From positions 233,983 to 297,982 of the forward strand of contig JAPPFB010000017.1 in the NCBI GenBank assembly GCA_028875225.1: a stretch of DNA of 64,000 nucleotides. Reading direction: 5' to 3'. This document shows, piece after piece, positions 1-43,014 of this stretch (positions are counted from its first letter, which is position 1; each line of letters starts with the position of its first letter). The translations under genes and the position numbers were made by a program. The notes beneath the pieces were generated by a model. That model was not told the DNA's origin. It did not search any database and saw nothing but the letters and a program-made list of their open reading frames with translations. The stretch comes from Chloroflexota bacterium. Lineage in GTDB: Bacteria > Chloroflexota > Dehalococcoidia > Bin125.

Positions 1-110
1 GGGGGGGGCTAAACGGTTGGCCGGGGGTTTATTTCTACTCCCCCCCCCCCGGCCCCTCCTTTTCTCGGGCCGCGGCCGGGTGCCCGGCGGGGGCTACCCG
101 GGCGGCAGCC
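1..110. other. Low-complexity G/C-rich window edge
   Basis: The first 110 bases have runs of G (positions 1-8 and 23-27) and of C (40-50), followed by more G/C-rich sequence. No feature can be assigned confidently here. The frame of the protease gene downstream stays open through this stretch to the edge. Either the gene begins outside the window, or the runs are an assembly-edge artefact that disturbs the true 5' end. Confidence 0.4.
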
Positions 111-25173: not shown

Positions 25174-25689
25174 CTATGACTCGGTGATCGTCACCGACTT
25201 CATCTTCGGTCCCGGCTGTCGCGATTGACGGGGATCCTGCGGGTCGCGGTCGGGGAAGGCGTGGACGACTTCCATGCCCGAGGTCACCTTGCCGAACGCC
25301 GTGTATTGACGGTCCAGGAAGGTCGCGTCGGCGTTGCAGATGAAGAACTGGCTGCCTGCGGAATTCGGATCCTGCGCCCGAGCCATCGAGAGCACACCCT
25401 CGACGTGCGCGGTGTCGTTGAACTCGGCCGGGACGTTGTAGCCGGGACCGCCTGTGCCGGTACCAGTCGGGTCCCCGCCCTGGGCCATGAATCCGCTGAT
25501 GATCCGGTGAAAGGTCACGCCGTCGTAGAAGCCGTCGTTGGCGAGGAAGACGAACGAGTTGACGTGCTCCGGCGCTTTGTCGGGCCAGAGTTCCAGCTCG
25601 ATCGTGCCGCCTTCTTCCATCTCGATCGTGGCGCTGTACGAAACGCCTTCCTTGAGCGCCATCGCCGGTCGACTGCTGTAGCTGGCCAT
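25174..25689 (-). CDS. Peptidyl-prolyl cis-trans isomerase, cyclophilin type
   Basis: A 171-residue cyclophilin, which speeds proline isomerisation. Core motifs: YDGVTFHRIISGFMAQGGDP (about 65-84), including the active-site Arg of FHR, then SMARAQDPNSAGSQFFICN (about 112-130). No signal peptide is seen with the ATG at 25689, so it is probably cytoplasmic. The open frame runs further upstream into the end of the neighbouring cyclophilin gene, but the start at 25689 matches the domain. It is 40 bases downstream of the second, anchored cyclophilin; a tandem duplication is likely. Confidence 0.9.
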   Translation of the reverse strand: MASYSSRPAMALKEGVSYSATIEMEEGGTIELELWPDKAPEHVNSFVFLANDGFYDGVTFHRIISGFMAQGGDPTGTGTGGPGYNVPAEFNDTAHVEGVLSMARAQDPNSAGSQFFICNADATFLDRQYTAFGKVTSGMEVVHAFPDRDPQDPRQSRQPGPKMKSVTITES

Positions 25690-25729
25690 CCCAATCCTCG
25701 ATTTCCTGGGCAAGCGTCGGCGACGCTCG

Positions 25730-26530
25730 CTATTGCTCGATAATCCGAATCTCGACGATCTTTGGGCCGGCAGGCGGAGTGGGCACTGCTGCCGGATCGC
25801 GAGTGTCGAAGGCGTACAGCAGGTCAATGCCCGATGTCACGATTCCGAAGGACGTGAAGCTCTGGCTGTCCAGGTGGTCCTGATCGCCCAGCTTGATGAA
25901 AAACTGTGACGATGACGCGCCGAGCCCGCTGCGCGCCATCGAGACCACGCCAATCGGCGTGACAGACAGCTGTCCCTCGTTCCCATCGTGAATCGGTTCG
26001 TCGGGAAGGGTGTATCCAGCGCTCCCGGTCCCGGTCGCGGTCGGATCTCCCGCCTGCGCGACGAATCCGGGAACGACCCGATGGAAGGTCAAACCGTCAT
26101 AGAAGCCCTCGCGCGCCAGGAAGACGAAGTTGTTGACGTGTTCCGGCGCCAGTCCCTCGTACAGGTCGATCACCACGATCTCGCCATCTTCCAACTCAAT
26201 CTCCGCGATGTAGTCGACGCCCTGGGTCAGGCTGAACGCCGGCGGCGCATCCCATTGCGGCTTGCCCTCAACCGCCCCGGTATCAACTTCGGAACCAGTT
26301 CTCCGGACCGGAGGCGGATCGGTGGTCGGCGCCGGACCGCCGCTGTCAAATGCCACAACGGCCAAACTGGCGATCAGCGTGACGGCCAGAACCAGTCCGA
26401 CCGTCGCGATCACCGGACGCGAAAACAGCCTCGATCGGCGGACGCCGCCGCGGTCGAATCCTCGCGACGCAGCTCGACGACGCGCCAGACGCTGGGGACG
26501 CGTTCGCGCGCTGCGACCTCGTTGCGACAC
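25730..26530 (-). CDS. Membrane-anchored cyclophilin-type peptidyl-prolyl isomerase
   Basis: A 266-residue protein. A very basic N-terminus (RGRSARTRPQRLARRRAASR) is followed by one membrane helix at about 40-62 (VIATVGLVLAVTLIASLAVV) and a Pro/Thr linker. A cyclophilin domain fills about 100-266, with YDGLTFHRVVPGFVAQAGDP and SMARSGLGASSSQFFIKLGD. The isomerase domain would therefore work outside the cytoplasmic membrane. This tail-out design is common in Chloroflexota and actinobacteria. It is the first gene of a run with the cytosolic cyclophilin and the small membrane protein. Confidence 0.88.
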   Translation of the reverse strand: MSQRGRSARTRPQRLARRRAASRGFDRGGVRRSRLFSRPVIATVGLVLAVTLIASLAVVAFDSGGPAPTTDPPPVRRTGSEVDTGAVEGKPQWDAPPAFSLTQGVDYIAEIELEDGEIVVIDLYEGLAPEHVNNFVFLAREGFYDGLTFHRVVPGFVAQAGDPTATGTGSAGYTLPDEPIHDGNEGQLSVTPIGVVSMARSGLGASSSQFFIKLGDQDHLDSQSFTSFGIVTSGIDLLYAFDTRDPAAVPTPPAGPKIVEIRIIEQ

Positions 26531-39553: not shown

Positions 39554-40774
39554 CTAATCCCGCATCATCTGATACCGCTTGCCCTCGGTCTTGATCGCCG
39601 GAGCAATCACCATCTCCGTCTCCTGCAACTCCCGAATCGTCTCCGCCCCAACACTGCCCATGCAAGTCCGCAACGCGCCGATCAGGTTCTCCGTCCCGTC
39701 CGTCCGCGAGGTCGGACCATACAGCAGCCGATCGAGCGTCGTGTGCTGCCCCACATGGACGCGCACGCCGCGCGGCAACTCGGCATGCGGCGTCGCCATC
39801 CCCCAGTGGAACCCGCGGCCCGGAGCCTCGAGCGCACCCGCGAACGGAGAGCCAATCATCACCGCGTCGGCCCCCGAGACCAGCGCCTTGCAGAAATCGC
39901 CGCCGGTCCGGATCCCGCCGTCCGTGATGATCGGCACGTAGCGACCCGTCCGCTCGTAGTAGACGTCCCGCGCGTAGGCGCACTCGATCGTCGCCGACAC
40001 CTGCGGCACGCCAATCCCCAGCACTTCGCGCGAGGTGCAGGCCGCGCCCGGACCGACGCCGACCAGCAATCCGGCGATGCCTTCTTCCATCAGTTCCAGC
40101 GACGCGTCGAATCCCACCGTGTTGCCGACCAGGGTCGGAATCTCCATCTCCCGGATCAGCTCGCTCAGGATCAACCCGCGCTGCGAGCGCGAGTAATGCC
40201 GCGCCGTCGTCACCGTCGACTGCACCACGAAGACGTCGGGACCAGCCTCCTTGATCGCCGGCGCCAGTCGCTTGGCGTTCGGAGGCGTGACCGAGACCGC
40301 CGCCGCCACGCCGCCGTCCTTGATCTGCTGAACCCGCAGGCCGATCAACTCATCGCGAATCGGCGTCGTGTAGGCGCGCTGCAGAATCTCCGTCGCCGCC
40401 TCCGTATCGCTGGCCGCCACTTCCTCCAGCACCTCGGCCGGATCGTCGAACCGGCACTGCAGACCCTCCAGGTTGAGCACTGCCATCCCGCCTCGCCGCC
40501 CCACTTCAATCGCGAAGTGCGGGTCGACCACGGCGTCCATCGCCGACGCCAGGATCGGAATCTCCAGCCGCTGCCCGGCCAGCATCGTCGAGACGTCAGT
40601 CAGTTCCGGGTTGATCGTCAACACGCCGGGCACAATCGCCACGTCGTCGAATCCGTACGCCTCCTGCAGCGACTTGCGCCGCGGATGCCGGATCGGCTCC
40701 AGCTCGGACTCGTAGGCGCCCTGCACCAGCTCCTGCCCGGGAGTCAGTGCTTCGCGTTCGGTCAACGTGGTCAT
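39554..40774 (-). CDS. GuaB3 family IMP dehydrogenase-related protein
   Basis: A 406-residue protein of the IMPDH/GMPR family that lacks the paired CBS domains of IMPDH. It begins ELEPIRHPRRKSLQEAYGF and continues GVLTINPELTDVS. The active-site loop is GVGPGAACTSREVLGIG (about 224-240), with the catalytic-type Cys, followed by PIITDGGIRTGGDFCKAL and the MIGSPFAGA phosphate site. GuaB3 proteins are known from actinobacteria, cyanobacteria and Chloroflexota; some have been shown to act as GMP reductases. The exact reaction here is not given by the sequence. ATG start; a strong hairpin lies 60 bases upstream. Confidence 0.88.
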   Translation of the reverse strand: MTTLTEREALTPGQELVQGAYESELEPIRHPRRKSLQEAYGFDDVAIVPGVLTINPELTDVSTMLAGQRLEIPILASAMDAVVDPHFAIEVGRRGGMAVLNLEGLQCRFDDPAEVLEEVAASDTEAATEILQRAYTTPIRDELIGLRVQQIKDGGVAAAVSVTPPNAKRLAPAIKEAGPDVFVVQSTVTTARHYSRSQRGLILSELIREMEIPTLVGNTVGFDASLELMEEGIAGLLVGVGPGAACTSREVLGIGVPQVSATIECAYARDVYYERTGRYVPIITDGGIRTGGDFCKALVSGADAVMIGSPFAGALEAPGRGFHWGMATPHAELPRGVRVHVGQHTTLDRLLYGPTSRTDGTENLIGALRTCMGSVGAETIRELQETEMVIAPAIKTEGKRYQMMRD

Positions 40775-40837
40775 CTGTCTCCCCTTTTGCTAATCCGAAG
40801 CTGGTGACCGACGAGGTCGAAGGGCGCTTAAACGCAT

Positions 40838-40860
40838 GAGCGCGGCACATGGCCGCGCTC
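40838..40860. other. GC-rich hairpin upstream of GuaB3 gene
   Basis: GAGCGCGGC (40838-40846) and GCCGCGCTC (40852-40860) form a perfect nine-base stem with a five-base loop. It is on the 5' side of the minus-strand GuaB3 gene, about 60 bases from its start. No T-run follows, so a simple terminator is less likely; a leader structure or a stray repeat is possible. Confidence 0.4.
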
Positions 40861-41006
40861 CTTCGCTTCTACGCCAGTGTCCCGTGCAAACAAGCACGTT
40901 ACCGACCGCCTGTCCTGACTCCACCGGTCACCCTAAGATACCCGACCCCCCACAAACCCTTCGTAAACGACCAAACAACTCCCACCCCCGGAGAAACACC
41001 TCGTCA

Positions 41007-41095
41007 TACCCGCGCTCGCCGCGGGTATCTCGCAGCATCCCGCACTGCCTCCTCTCCCACCCCCACCCCTCCGATGCCCCGCACTCGATGCGGGG
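41007..41095. repeat. Pair of palindromic stems (REP-like)
   Basis: The first stem is ATACCCGCG-CTCGC-CGCGGGTAT (41007-41029). The second is CCCCGCACTCGATGCGGGG (41077-41095), identical over 19 bases to the stem at 62178-62196 and one base different from 42063-42081. All three lie outside genes. They resemble the widespread bacterial intergenic palindromes that contain CCCGC...GCGGG with nearby ATCCAG. Confidence 0.6.
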
Positions 41096-41205
41096 CCCAG
41101 ACCTCCGCCCACATCAACAGCGCCACACTCCCCCTCACCCCACCCCCGCGCCAACCCGCATACCATACAAAGAACATATGTACCTCTCAAGGAAAGGCCC
41201 TCCTC

Positions 41206-42025
41206 ATGTCCAACCCGCCCACCCCCAGACGCTGCCGACGCATCCTCGAAGCCCACCACCTCGACTGCCAGGGCCGCCCCCCCCGATGACATCGCCGCTG
41301 AGCTCCATTGCGCCCGCTCCACCGTCTACGCCTACTTCCGCGACTTCCAGCTCCACCGCGCCCACATCCTGCGCAGCGTCGCCGCCGACCGACTCGCCGA
41401 CCAGGTCCACATCCTCACCACCCCCGACACCGACCCCGACCAGCACCGCCAGACCGTCGCCGCCACCAGAGAGCTGCGTCTCCTCCTCGCCGCCCTGCCC
41501 AACCTCCAGGAACAGGAGCGCGAACAGCGCGAACAACTCGTCAACGCCCGCCAGGCCGACGCTGTCGCTCTCGCTCGAAGCCGGCATTTCCTGGCCGACG
41601 AGGACGGACACGTCCGTTACGTCGCCGGCGACGACTACGGCCAATGCCTGCCCGAGTGCCCGATGTGCCGCCCCGACCTCTACGAAGGCGACGACGCCCT
41701 GCCGCATCTCAGATCCTTGTACCACCTTGCCGAACCCCACCAACGCCCCCAGCCCTCCGACGCCGAACTGGACGAACCTGCTCCCACCGAGCCTGAACCG
41801 GACCAACCTCCACAATTTCCAGATGAATCCGCACCCATCCAGACAAATCTGGACAAATCCGGACAAGAAAACGACCAAAACCCAGCCCAGGCCACCGAAT
41901 CCACGCCAAACCCCCCAAATTCACCCCTCAGACCCCACCAACCCCGGAACTGGCCCAGACTCACCACACCCCAACGCCCCAACCGAAGCGTCGTCATCCC
42001 CCTCCCCGACCTGAGCAGACACTGA
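41206..42025 (+). pseudogene. HTH-domain protein gene, frameshifted at a C8 tract
   Basis: The ATG at 41206 has AGGAAAGG upstream and begins MSNPPTPRRCRRILEAHHLD. After 27 codons this frame stops just past a run of eight C (41277-41284). Removing one C joins it to the next frame, which reads DDIAAELHCARSTVYAYFRD and continues open to the stop at 42025, about 272 residues in all. The N-terminal part is a helix-turn-helix (about 10-50) like those of transposases or phage terminase small subunits. The middle has a CLPECPMC cluster, possibly metal-binding. The C-terminal third is Pro/Gln/Asn-rich with an IQTNLDKSGQ-type repeat. It may be a sequencing error, a decayed gene or a phase-variable one. 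It lies among palindromic repeats, not in an operon. Confidence 0.6.
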
Positions 42026-42030
42026 TGTCC

Positions 42031-42120
42031 CCTCTGACCCCCTCTCCCCGAGGGAGAGCTTGCCCCGCACTTGATGCGGGGGGCTGGAGCCTGCCCCCGC
42101 GACGGCGGGGGGTGAGGGCC
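42031..42120. repeat. Three adjacent palindromic stems (REP-like)
   Basis: Stem 1 is CTCTCCCC-GA-GGGAGAG (42042-42058), stem 2 CCCCGCACTTGATGCGGGG (42063-42081), stem 3 CCCCCGC-GAC-GGCGGGGG (42094-42111). Stem 1 belongs to the CCCTCTCCC type of 39494, stem 2 to the type at 41077 and 62178, stem 3 to the type at 24755 and 47612. So all three repeat types of this window meet here, right after the broken HTH gene and before rsmI. Confidence 0.65.
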
Positions 42121-42183
42121 TTCCGCTACCCCCAACCGAGCAGATGAACAGCGCAATCACCCTCGATCTTTACAGTGACACCC

Positions 42184-43014
42184 ATGTCCACCGACCCCGG
42201 CACCCTCTACGTCGTCGCCACACCGATCGGCAACCTCGAGGACATCACCCTGCGCGCACTGCGCGTTCTCCGTGAAGTTGACCTGATCGCTGCCGAACAC
42301 GTCCCCGTCGCCCTGGCCCTGCTGCGCCACTACGAGATCGACACTCCGGTCCTCCCCTATCACGACCGAGGTCCGGACCCCCAACGCATCGTGGAGCGAA
42401 TCGAGCGTGGACAGTCGGTCGCCCTGGTCTCCGACGCCGGCACGCCCGGAGTCTCAGACCCGGGACGCAACCTCGTCGCCGCGGCGTTGGACGCTGGATT
42501 TGACGTCGTCCCAATCCCCGGCGCGGCTGCATCTGTCGCACTCTGGTCGGTCAGCGGCGCAGAGTCGCCACAGGTGATGCTGTACGGCTTCCTGCCTCGC
42601 AAGACCAGCGAGCGTCGCCGAGCACTCGAGCAGCTCGCAGCCCTTGGACAGCCATCGATCGTGTTCGAGTCGCCGAGGCGAGTACGGAGCACGTTTCAGG
42701 ACATGGCCGACACCGTTCCCGATGCGCAGCTCGTGGTCGGCCGCGAGCTGACCAAGCTCCACGAACAGATCTGGCGCGGGACGCCGGCTGAGGCGCTCGA
42801 GGAGTTCGGCGAACCGCGCGGCGAATTCACCATCCTCCTCATTCCTCCCGTCGAAGGCGGCCGCCTCTGGACCGATGACGACGTCGCCAAGGCGCTCGCC
42901 GAGGCCGCTTCGCAGGGAGCCTCGCGACCGCAGGCCGCGCGCTTCGTCGCGCAGCAGTCCGGCCGGCCGCGACGTGAGGTTTACGCGCTCTGGCCGTTCG
43001 AGTCGGAACGATGA
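42184..43014 (+). CDS. rsmI: 16S rRNA (cytidine-1402 2'-O)-methyltransferase
   Basis: A 276-residue tetrapyrrole-methylase-fold enzyme that methylates C1402 of 16S rRNA. The N-terminal signature is YVVATPIGNLEDITLRALRV. GQSVALVSDAGTPGVSDPGR (about 75-94) forms the SAM pocket, and VIGRELTK-like VVGRELTKLHEQIWRGTPAE is at about 183-202. The ATG at 42184 is preferred to a GTG nine bases upstream. The next gene, metG, is 85 bases on. Length is normal. Confidence 0.93.
   Translation: MSTDPGTLYVVATPIGNLEDITLRALRVLREVDLIAAEHVPVALALLRHYEIDTPVLPYHDRGPDPQRIVERIERGQSVALVSDAGTPGVSDPGRNLVAAALDAGFDVVPIPGAAASVALWSVSGAESPQVMLYGFLPRKTSERRRALEQLAALGQPSIVFESPRRVRSTFQDMADTVPDAQLVVGRELTKLHEQIWRGTPAEALEEFGEPRGEFTILLIPPVEGGRLWTDDDVAKALAEAASQGASRPQAARFVAQQSGRPRREVYALWPFESER

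Follow-up and report, generated by a model that had tools for sequence, protein, structure and literature searches.

The window, which is the whole 64-kb stretch of DNA analysed here, is part of contig C16 of a 3.22-Mb genome in 29 contigs (referred to as G000). It contains an HTH gene that is divided between two reading frames, within a short accessory segment flanked by genes that, from their proteins, we take to be guaB and rsmI; metG and tatD are names that we presume on the same grounds. The features of the locus, numbered by window position, are as follows.

39554–40774, minus strand: guaB, flanking the accessory segment
40980–42170, no strand assigned: accessory segment between guaB and rsmI, edges approximate
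41076–41095, plus strand: dispersed GC-rich palindrome GCCCCGCACTCGATGCGGGG, on the upstream side of the gene
41172–41183, plus strand: GAACATATGTAC box, 22 nt upstream of the ATG; resembles a LexA/SOS operator and is common to many family members
41206–41289, plus strand: frame A, the start of the HTH gene and the first HTH part, 27 aa, with a premature TGA at 41287–41289
41277–41284, plus strand: C8 run, the point of the frame change, not at the same place in the other members compared
41285–42025, plus strand: frame B, the remainder of the HTH gene, open to the TGA at 42023–42025
42062–42081, plus strand: the same palindrome with one base different, on the downstream side of the gene
About 42175–43014, plus strand: rsmI, flanking the accessory segment

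We confirmed that frames A and B are two pieces of one HTH gene. A family profile built from 22 intact relatives matches the window as two abutting pieces in two frames (G000:C16:275188–275262, profile positions 3–27; 275267–275950, profile positions 29–229). All 38 of the other strong matches (E ≤ 4.6e-20), which include the 22 used in model building, span profile positions 20–45 unbroken; one of them, at an end of contig G005:C10, begins at position 19 of the profile. Among the 39 strong profile matches, the window copy is the only one that is split at the junction; its HTH is not read in one continuous frame. Stop codons occur somewhere inside the match in 6 of the 38: four of these genes (L007, L028, L018 and L023) are open through the HTH, the stops of G010:C20 sit in a degraded contig end, and G010:C40 also bears a stop somewhere in its match. 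The first 24 residues of frame A are identical to those of the intact same-genome paralogue L002 at 22 positions and differ at two. Frame B encodes the second HTH half, a conserved ELRLLL segment, a Cys-rich segment and a variable Pro/acidic tail. Its earliest ATG, GTG or TTG is at 41663, and its HTH half therefore has no usual start codon of its own.

The preliminary description of this DNA had joined the two frames into one protein, with a good ribosome site before the ATG and an HTH across the junction, and had called for homologues with an intact frame at this point. These claims hold: the homologues exist, AGGAAAGG lies 8 nt upstream of the ATG at 41206, and the junction falls inside the HTH because the Pfam HTH_23 domain (PF13384) of intact relatives spans the junction point (residues 12–52 of L013 and 26–63 of L018). 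The description of the surroundings as an accessory locus with repeats is also borne out. The sequence GCCCCGCACTYGATGCGGGG occurs at 41076, 42062 and 62177 in the window, compared with 0.03 expected occurrences, and it flanks the gene on both sides; stretches similar to the palindrome match many contigs of relatives. The gap between guaB and rsmI is empty of genes in six of seven relatives (G001, G002, G004, G005, G006 and G009), and in the seventh, G013, it is occupied by an unlike gene on the opposite strand. G010 carries the same gene as the window, followed by rsmI, and in G005 the interval from rsmI to metG contains a family member. The gene in the G013 gap (L101) appears HTH-like by eye and has a GAACATCTGTC stretch before it; it gave no match to the family profile at 1e-5.

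The guaB leader (window positions 40800–40960, minus strand) is strongly conserved across all seven genus genomes in the alignment: a GAGCGCGGC-CATGT-GCCGCGCTC hairpin is invariant, and another stem-like part is conserved as well. The leader had no match in Rfam even at E ≤ 1. With changes on both sides in only 2 of the 35 predicted pairs, a structure here is no more than a lead.

The window gene belongs to a multi-copy, apparently genus-restricted family of HTH DNA-binding proteins, as judged from profile searches. At 1e-5, the profile matches 11 of 15 genus genomes, with 18 matches in G000 and 24 in G010, counts that include short matches limited to the HTH or to the tail; the sole match in G008 is a tail with three stops. 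At 1e-20, with at most 18 candidates scored per genome, 6 of a sample of 148 genomes of the class match, all from one genus (1 of 116 genera), and under the same scoring G000 has at least 7 matches. A search with a single protein found matches in 10 of 61 genomes, again in this genus only, and the nearest named relative of the window gene is from Chloroflexi bacterium isolate SB0664_bin_20. The family is turning over within the genus, as 4 of the 15 genomes have no match at 1e-5 and most of the tail is missing from L017, L018 and L023. Six family members were scanned against HTH_23 (cut-off of 24.6 bits): L013 (32.0) and L018 (31.6) score above it, and L008 (24.3), L005 (24.2), L028 (21.1) and L002 (17.8) below it. 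Frame B of the window alone reaches 14.6 bits against the same cut-off. Among known structures, the profile gives seven partial matches at E ≤ 0.1, including weak ones to resolvase HTHs. The best of these, to Mediator subunit 9 (2.4e-4, profile positions 65–131), was set aside as a putative chance similarity between helical proteins. A phage origin was also rejected, given that frame B has no match in phage records and that 47 pattern matches in viral contigs include no relative. Family members do match DNA-binding or HTH-containing families in PHROGs (best, phrog_664 at 5.9e-7 for L013), and a remote phage link may exist.

Close to the start codon of the window gene is an operator-like box that matches GAACATATGTAC with no mismatches. 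In the window alone, three box matches at up to two mismatches were found, no more than chance (2.1 expected), and the weight therefore rests on the family. Of 26 members, 17 have a GAACATAYGTAC-like box, with up to two mismatches, no further than 120 nt from the start (mean of 0.18 and maximum of 2 in 500 Markov controls); the other nine have three or four mismatches. GAACRNRYGTWC occurs 26 times in G000 when counted by strand, compared with 4 for the reversed control, and 172 times compared with 57 when summed over ten relatives, with a weak excess in G006 (8 versus 4), G013 (16 versus 11) and G009 (21 versus 13). The wider pattern GAACNNNNGTTC shows only a mild excess (40 versus 24 places). 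In its treatment of the LexA operator, PMC3323433 gives GAAC-N4-GTTC as the motif of Bacillus subtilis and Mycobacterium tuberculosis and, by extension, of Gram-positive bacteria. The window box differs from this motif by one mismatch (GTAC), and the boxes of L017 and L008 match it exactly. In the lexA region of this genome, GAACGGCCGTTC lies some 110 nt upstream of the probable start. On the strength of these motifs, LexA would be expected to bind the box here and to link the family to its regulon, and intact copies would probably provide a DNA-binding regulator that is made upon release of an SOS-like repressor.

Genes other than those of the HTH family lie behind the same box. Of 23 distinct GAACRNRYGTWC places in G000, 15 precede recognisable genes and the other 8 are junk-like or unrecognised. 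The boxed genes comprise four HTH-family members (including that of the window), five copies of a family of 85–119 aa (MPN.YH.RA.IDRLWR-like), two copies of an 89-aa family, a 76-aa Cys-rich protein, a class II ribonucleotide reductase (by Pfam), a radical SAM protein and a protein that resembles Y-family polymerases and scores below the NCBIfam cut-offs. Inspection by eye of 29 box loci in relatives showed that 15 precede genes of these kinds, a further HTH gene or the gene adjacent to lexA in G000.

The second multi-copy family (MPN.YH.RA.IDRLWR...DP.DVARH.LRDLYD-like) has the same box at L041, L042, L046, L052 and L055 in G000 and at L183, L184, L186, L190, L197 and L106 in relatives; L055 matches PHROG 30150, which has no named function, at 2.3e-6, and has no Pfam match. 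A third small family, YTDAAIKAGIAHEAANGPSHVRIKALGMMARI-like, is found behind the box at L054, L058 and L185, and L054 has a weak match to a PHROG without a named function (8.2e-4) and none in Pfam. The 76-aa Cys-rich protein (CPRCAGPTA...CVICGFG) follows a GAACGTACGTAC box at L051 in G000 and at L179, L180, L187 and L195 in relatives.

As to the break in the window copy, our main reading is that a real, recent change of one base in length disrupted the frame, and we place its probability at about one half. The change is most likely a recent one that is found in this copy alone. Across the stretch, L002, the closest paralogue in the same genome, has one base fewer and stays in frame, and the register of the G010 orthologue is also without the extra base, with degraded letters at that place. 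The dN/dS of frame B relative to the G010 orthologue is 0.15 in the first 75 codons, 0.42 in the middle and 0.83 in the tail. The low value over the first 75 codons suggests a recent loss; the overall value of 0.48 is well above those of the neighbouring rsmI (0.17) and metG (0.05), and constraint outside the HTH is therefore modest. Polymerase slippage in the C-rich stretch would be the simplest origin of a one-base change. As assembled, translation from the normal start of the family would halt after 27 codons, inside the HTH, and the window copy should yield no DNA-binding protein, which would make it a newly formed pseudogene or else an inactive allele. We infer that the change is present in the cell, not merely in the assembly, and that the product has been lost.

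The most serious competitor, to which we assign a substantial share of the probability, is a consensus or assembly error, whereby the gene is intact in the cell and the reading of a C-rich, repeat-flanked stretch has introduced the extra base. The persisting constraint on the HTH half would fit an intact gene. In the sister assembly, G010, the sequence is interrupted on either side of this place. The contigs of G010, which their gene order indicates to be neighbours, end either side of a stretch of about 250 nt just before the junction, with poly-G on one side and, on the other, 65 corrupted nt over the junction in which the shorter register is kept. Exact C8/G8 runs number 33 in G000, the highest count of 11 genomes (4–28 in the ten relatives), and 21 of the 33 lie by N gaps or contig ends (16 no more than 400 nt from an N gap, and 5 no more than about 100 nt from a contig end). 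Window positions 1–60 and several contig ends and N gaps of G000 consist of junk-like G/C-rich sequence that is probably an assembly artefact. The C8 run of L002 (G000:C2:299987–299996) also has a length change, being two bases shorter than in the window and G010, with the last residues of the protein changed; this fits systematic miscalling as well as it fits real slippage.

Set against an error, the run in the window is among the 12 that are not beside an N gap or contig end, and roughly 41 kb separate it from the junk-like beginning of the window. The window contains no N, and the coding sequence that flanks the run is normal. Open reading frames of relatives match 56.5 of the 64 kb of the window (tblastn). 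Seven of the 351 were flagged as two-frame, and by eye all seven were judged to be adjacent genes or antisense frames. The most frameshift-like of them, a tandem pair at 25174–26530, is one open frame in G006 and was kept as adjacent genes because it is in two frames in G002 as well as in the window. Broadly poor sequence across the window was rejected on this basis, as the 56.5 kb yielded no further accepted frameshift, although that sequence contains no other C8 run. A codon-score test for frame changes at the other C8 runs was discarded as too noisy, many of them being in junk-like or intergenic DNA.

We regard as improbable a phase-variable or slippage-programmed gene, in which the regulator would be toggled by changes in C-run length or by slippage on the run during translation or transcription. 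The proximity of an eight-C run to the start of a regulator gene is in its favour, as is the lack of a usual start codon in frame B before 41663, such that expression would need slippage. However, the HTH gene is 45.7% C, and the run is no more than chance because a C run of eight or longer arises in 48.8% of 2,000 dinucleotide shuffles. Comparison of 28 member sequences, including that of the window, found no tract at the same place in the 27 others; relatives carry unlike sequences across the stretch (for example, GGCCTCTCCCCC, GGACTCCGACCC and GGACACTCCGCC). Among 22 other family genes, the longest C run measures 4–6 in 21; the exception is L002, with a run of 8 near the other (3′) end of the gene. 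The tract is not conserved in orthologues or paralogues, as a phase-variable switch would predict, and the conserved slippery site and frame arrangement of programmed ribosomal frameshifting are likewise absent, with homologues reading through in one frame. A conserved switch or slippage site was therefore rejected, same-place tracts being absent from every relative compared. Of the overall interpretation in the preliminary description, the split HTH gene, the one-base difference and the accessory locus stand, and the suggested phase-variable switch or slippage site, already weakened by this lack of conservation, does not; its other option, a sequencing error, may still apply. Both frames are open as assembled, but the idea that the 27-codon peptide and the downstream protein come from separate genes can be dismissed given that the pieces are consecutive parts of one profile, that frame B is without an ATG, GTG or TTG before 41663 and that homologues cover both pieces in a single frame.

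With a real one-base change as the preferred reading, the frame break itself has the look of an ordinary gene break, or of a sequencing error, and not of a switch; the HTH family behind it is unusual and is the better finding. The window nonetheless provides a case in which a switch-like run can be weighed by comparison of relatives. Tentatively, and with somewhat more doubt than conviction, we propose that this chloroflexotan genus has expanded mobile-like HTH regulators under SOS-box control, together with two further small multi-copy boxed families, at variable intergenic sites such as guaB–rsmI–metG; these would form a lineage-specific arm of the DNA-damage response, with copies, such as that in the window, that are quickly gained and silenced. 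If this is true, the repeated and apparently DNA-damage-linked regulator genes of one genus would add a new accessory layer to a stress response that is already known.

Phase-variable poly-C genes occur in bacteria such as Neisseria, and the window gene is similar to them in having an early C run in the coding frame and differs in that its tract is not common to the orthologue or the paralogues. Compared with HTH_23 in Pfam, two of the scanned members exceed the cut-off and the four others score 17.8–24.3; the matches inspected at E ≤ 0.1 are of the HTH type and near the N terminus, and the rest of the protein is unnamed. Relative to the LexA/SOS regulon of PMC3323433, the usual form of the box in the family, GAACATAYGTAC, has GTAC instead of GTTC, and no exact box was found for recA of this genome, whereas similar boxes are present here before lexA and before genes for the Y-family-polymerase-like protein, ribonucleotide reductase and the radical SAM protein.
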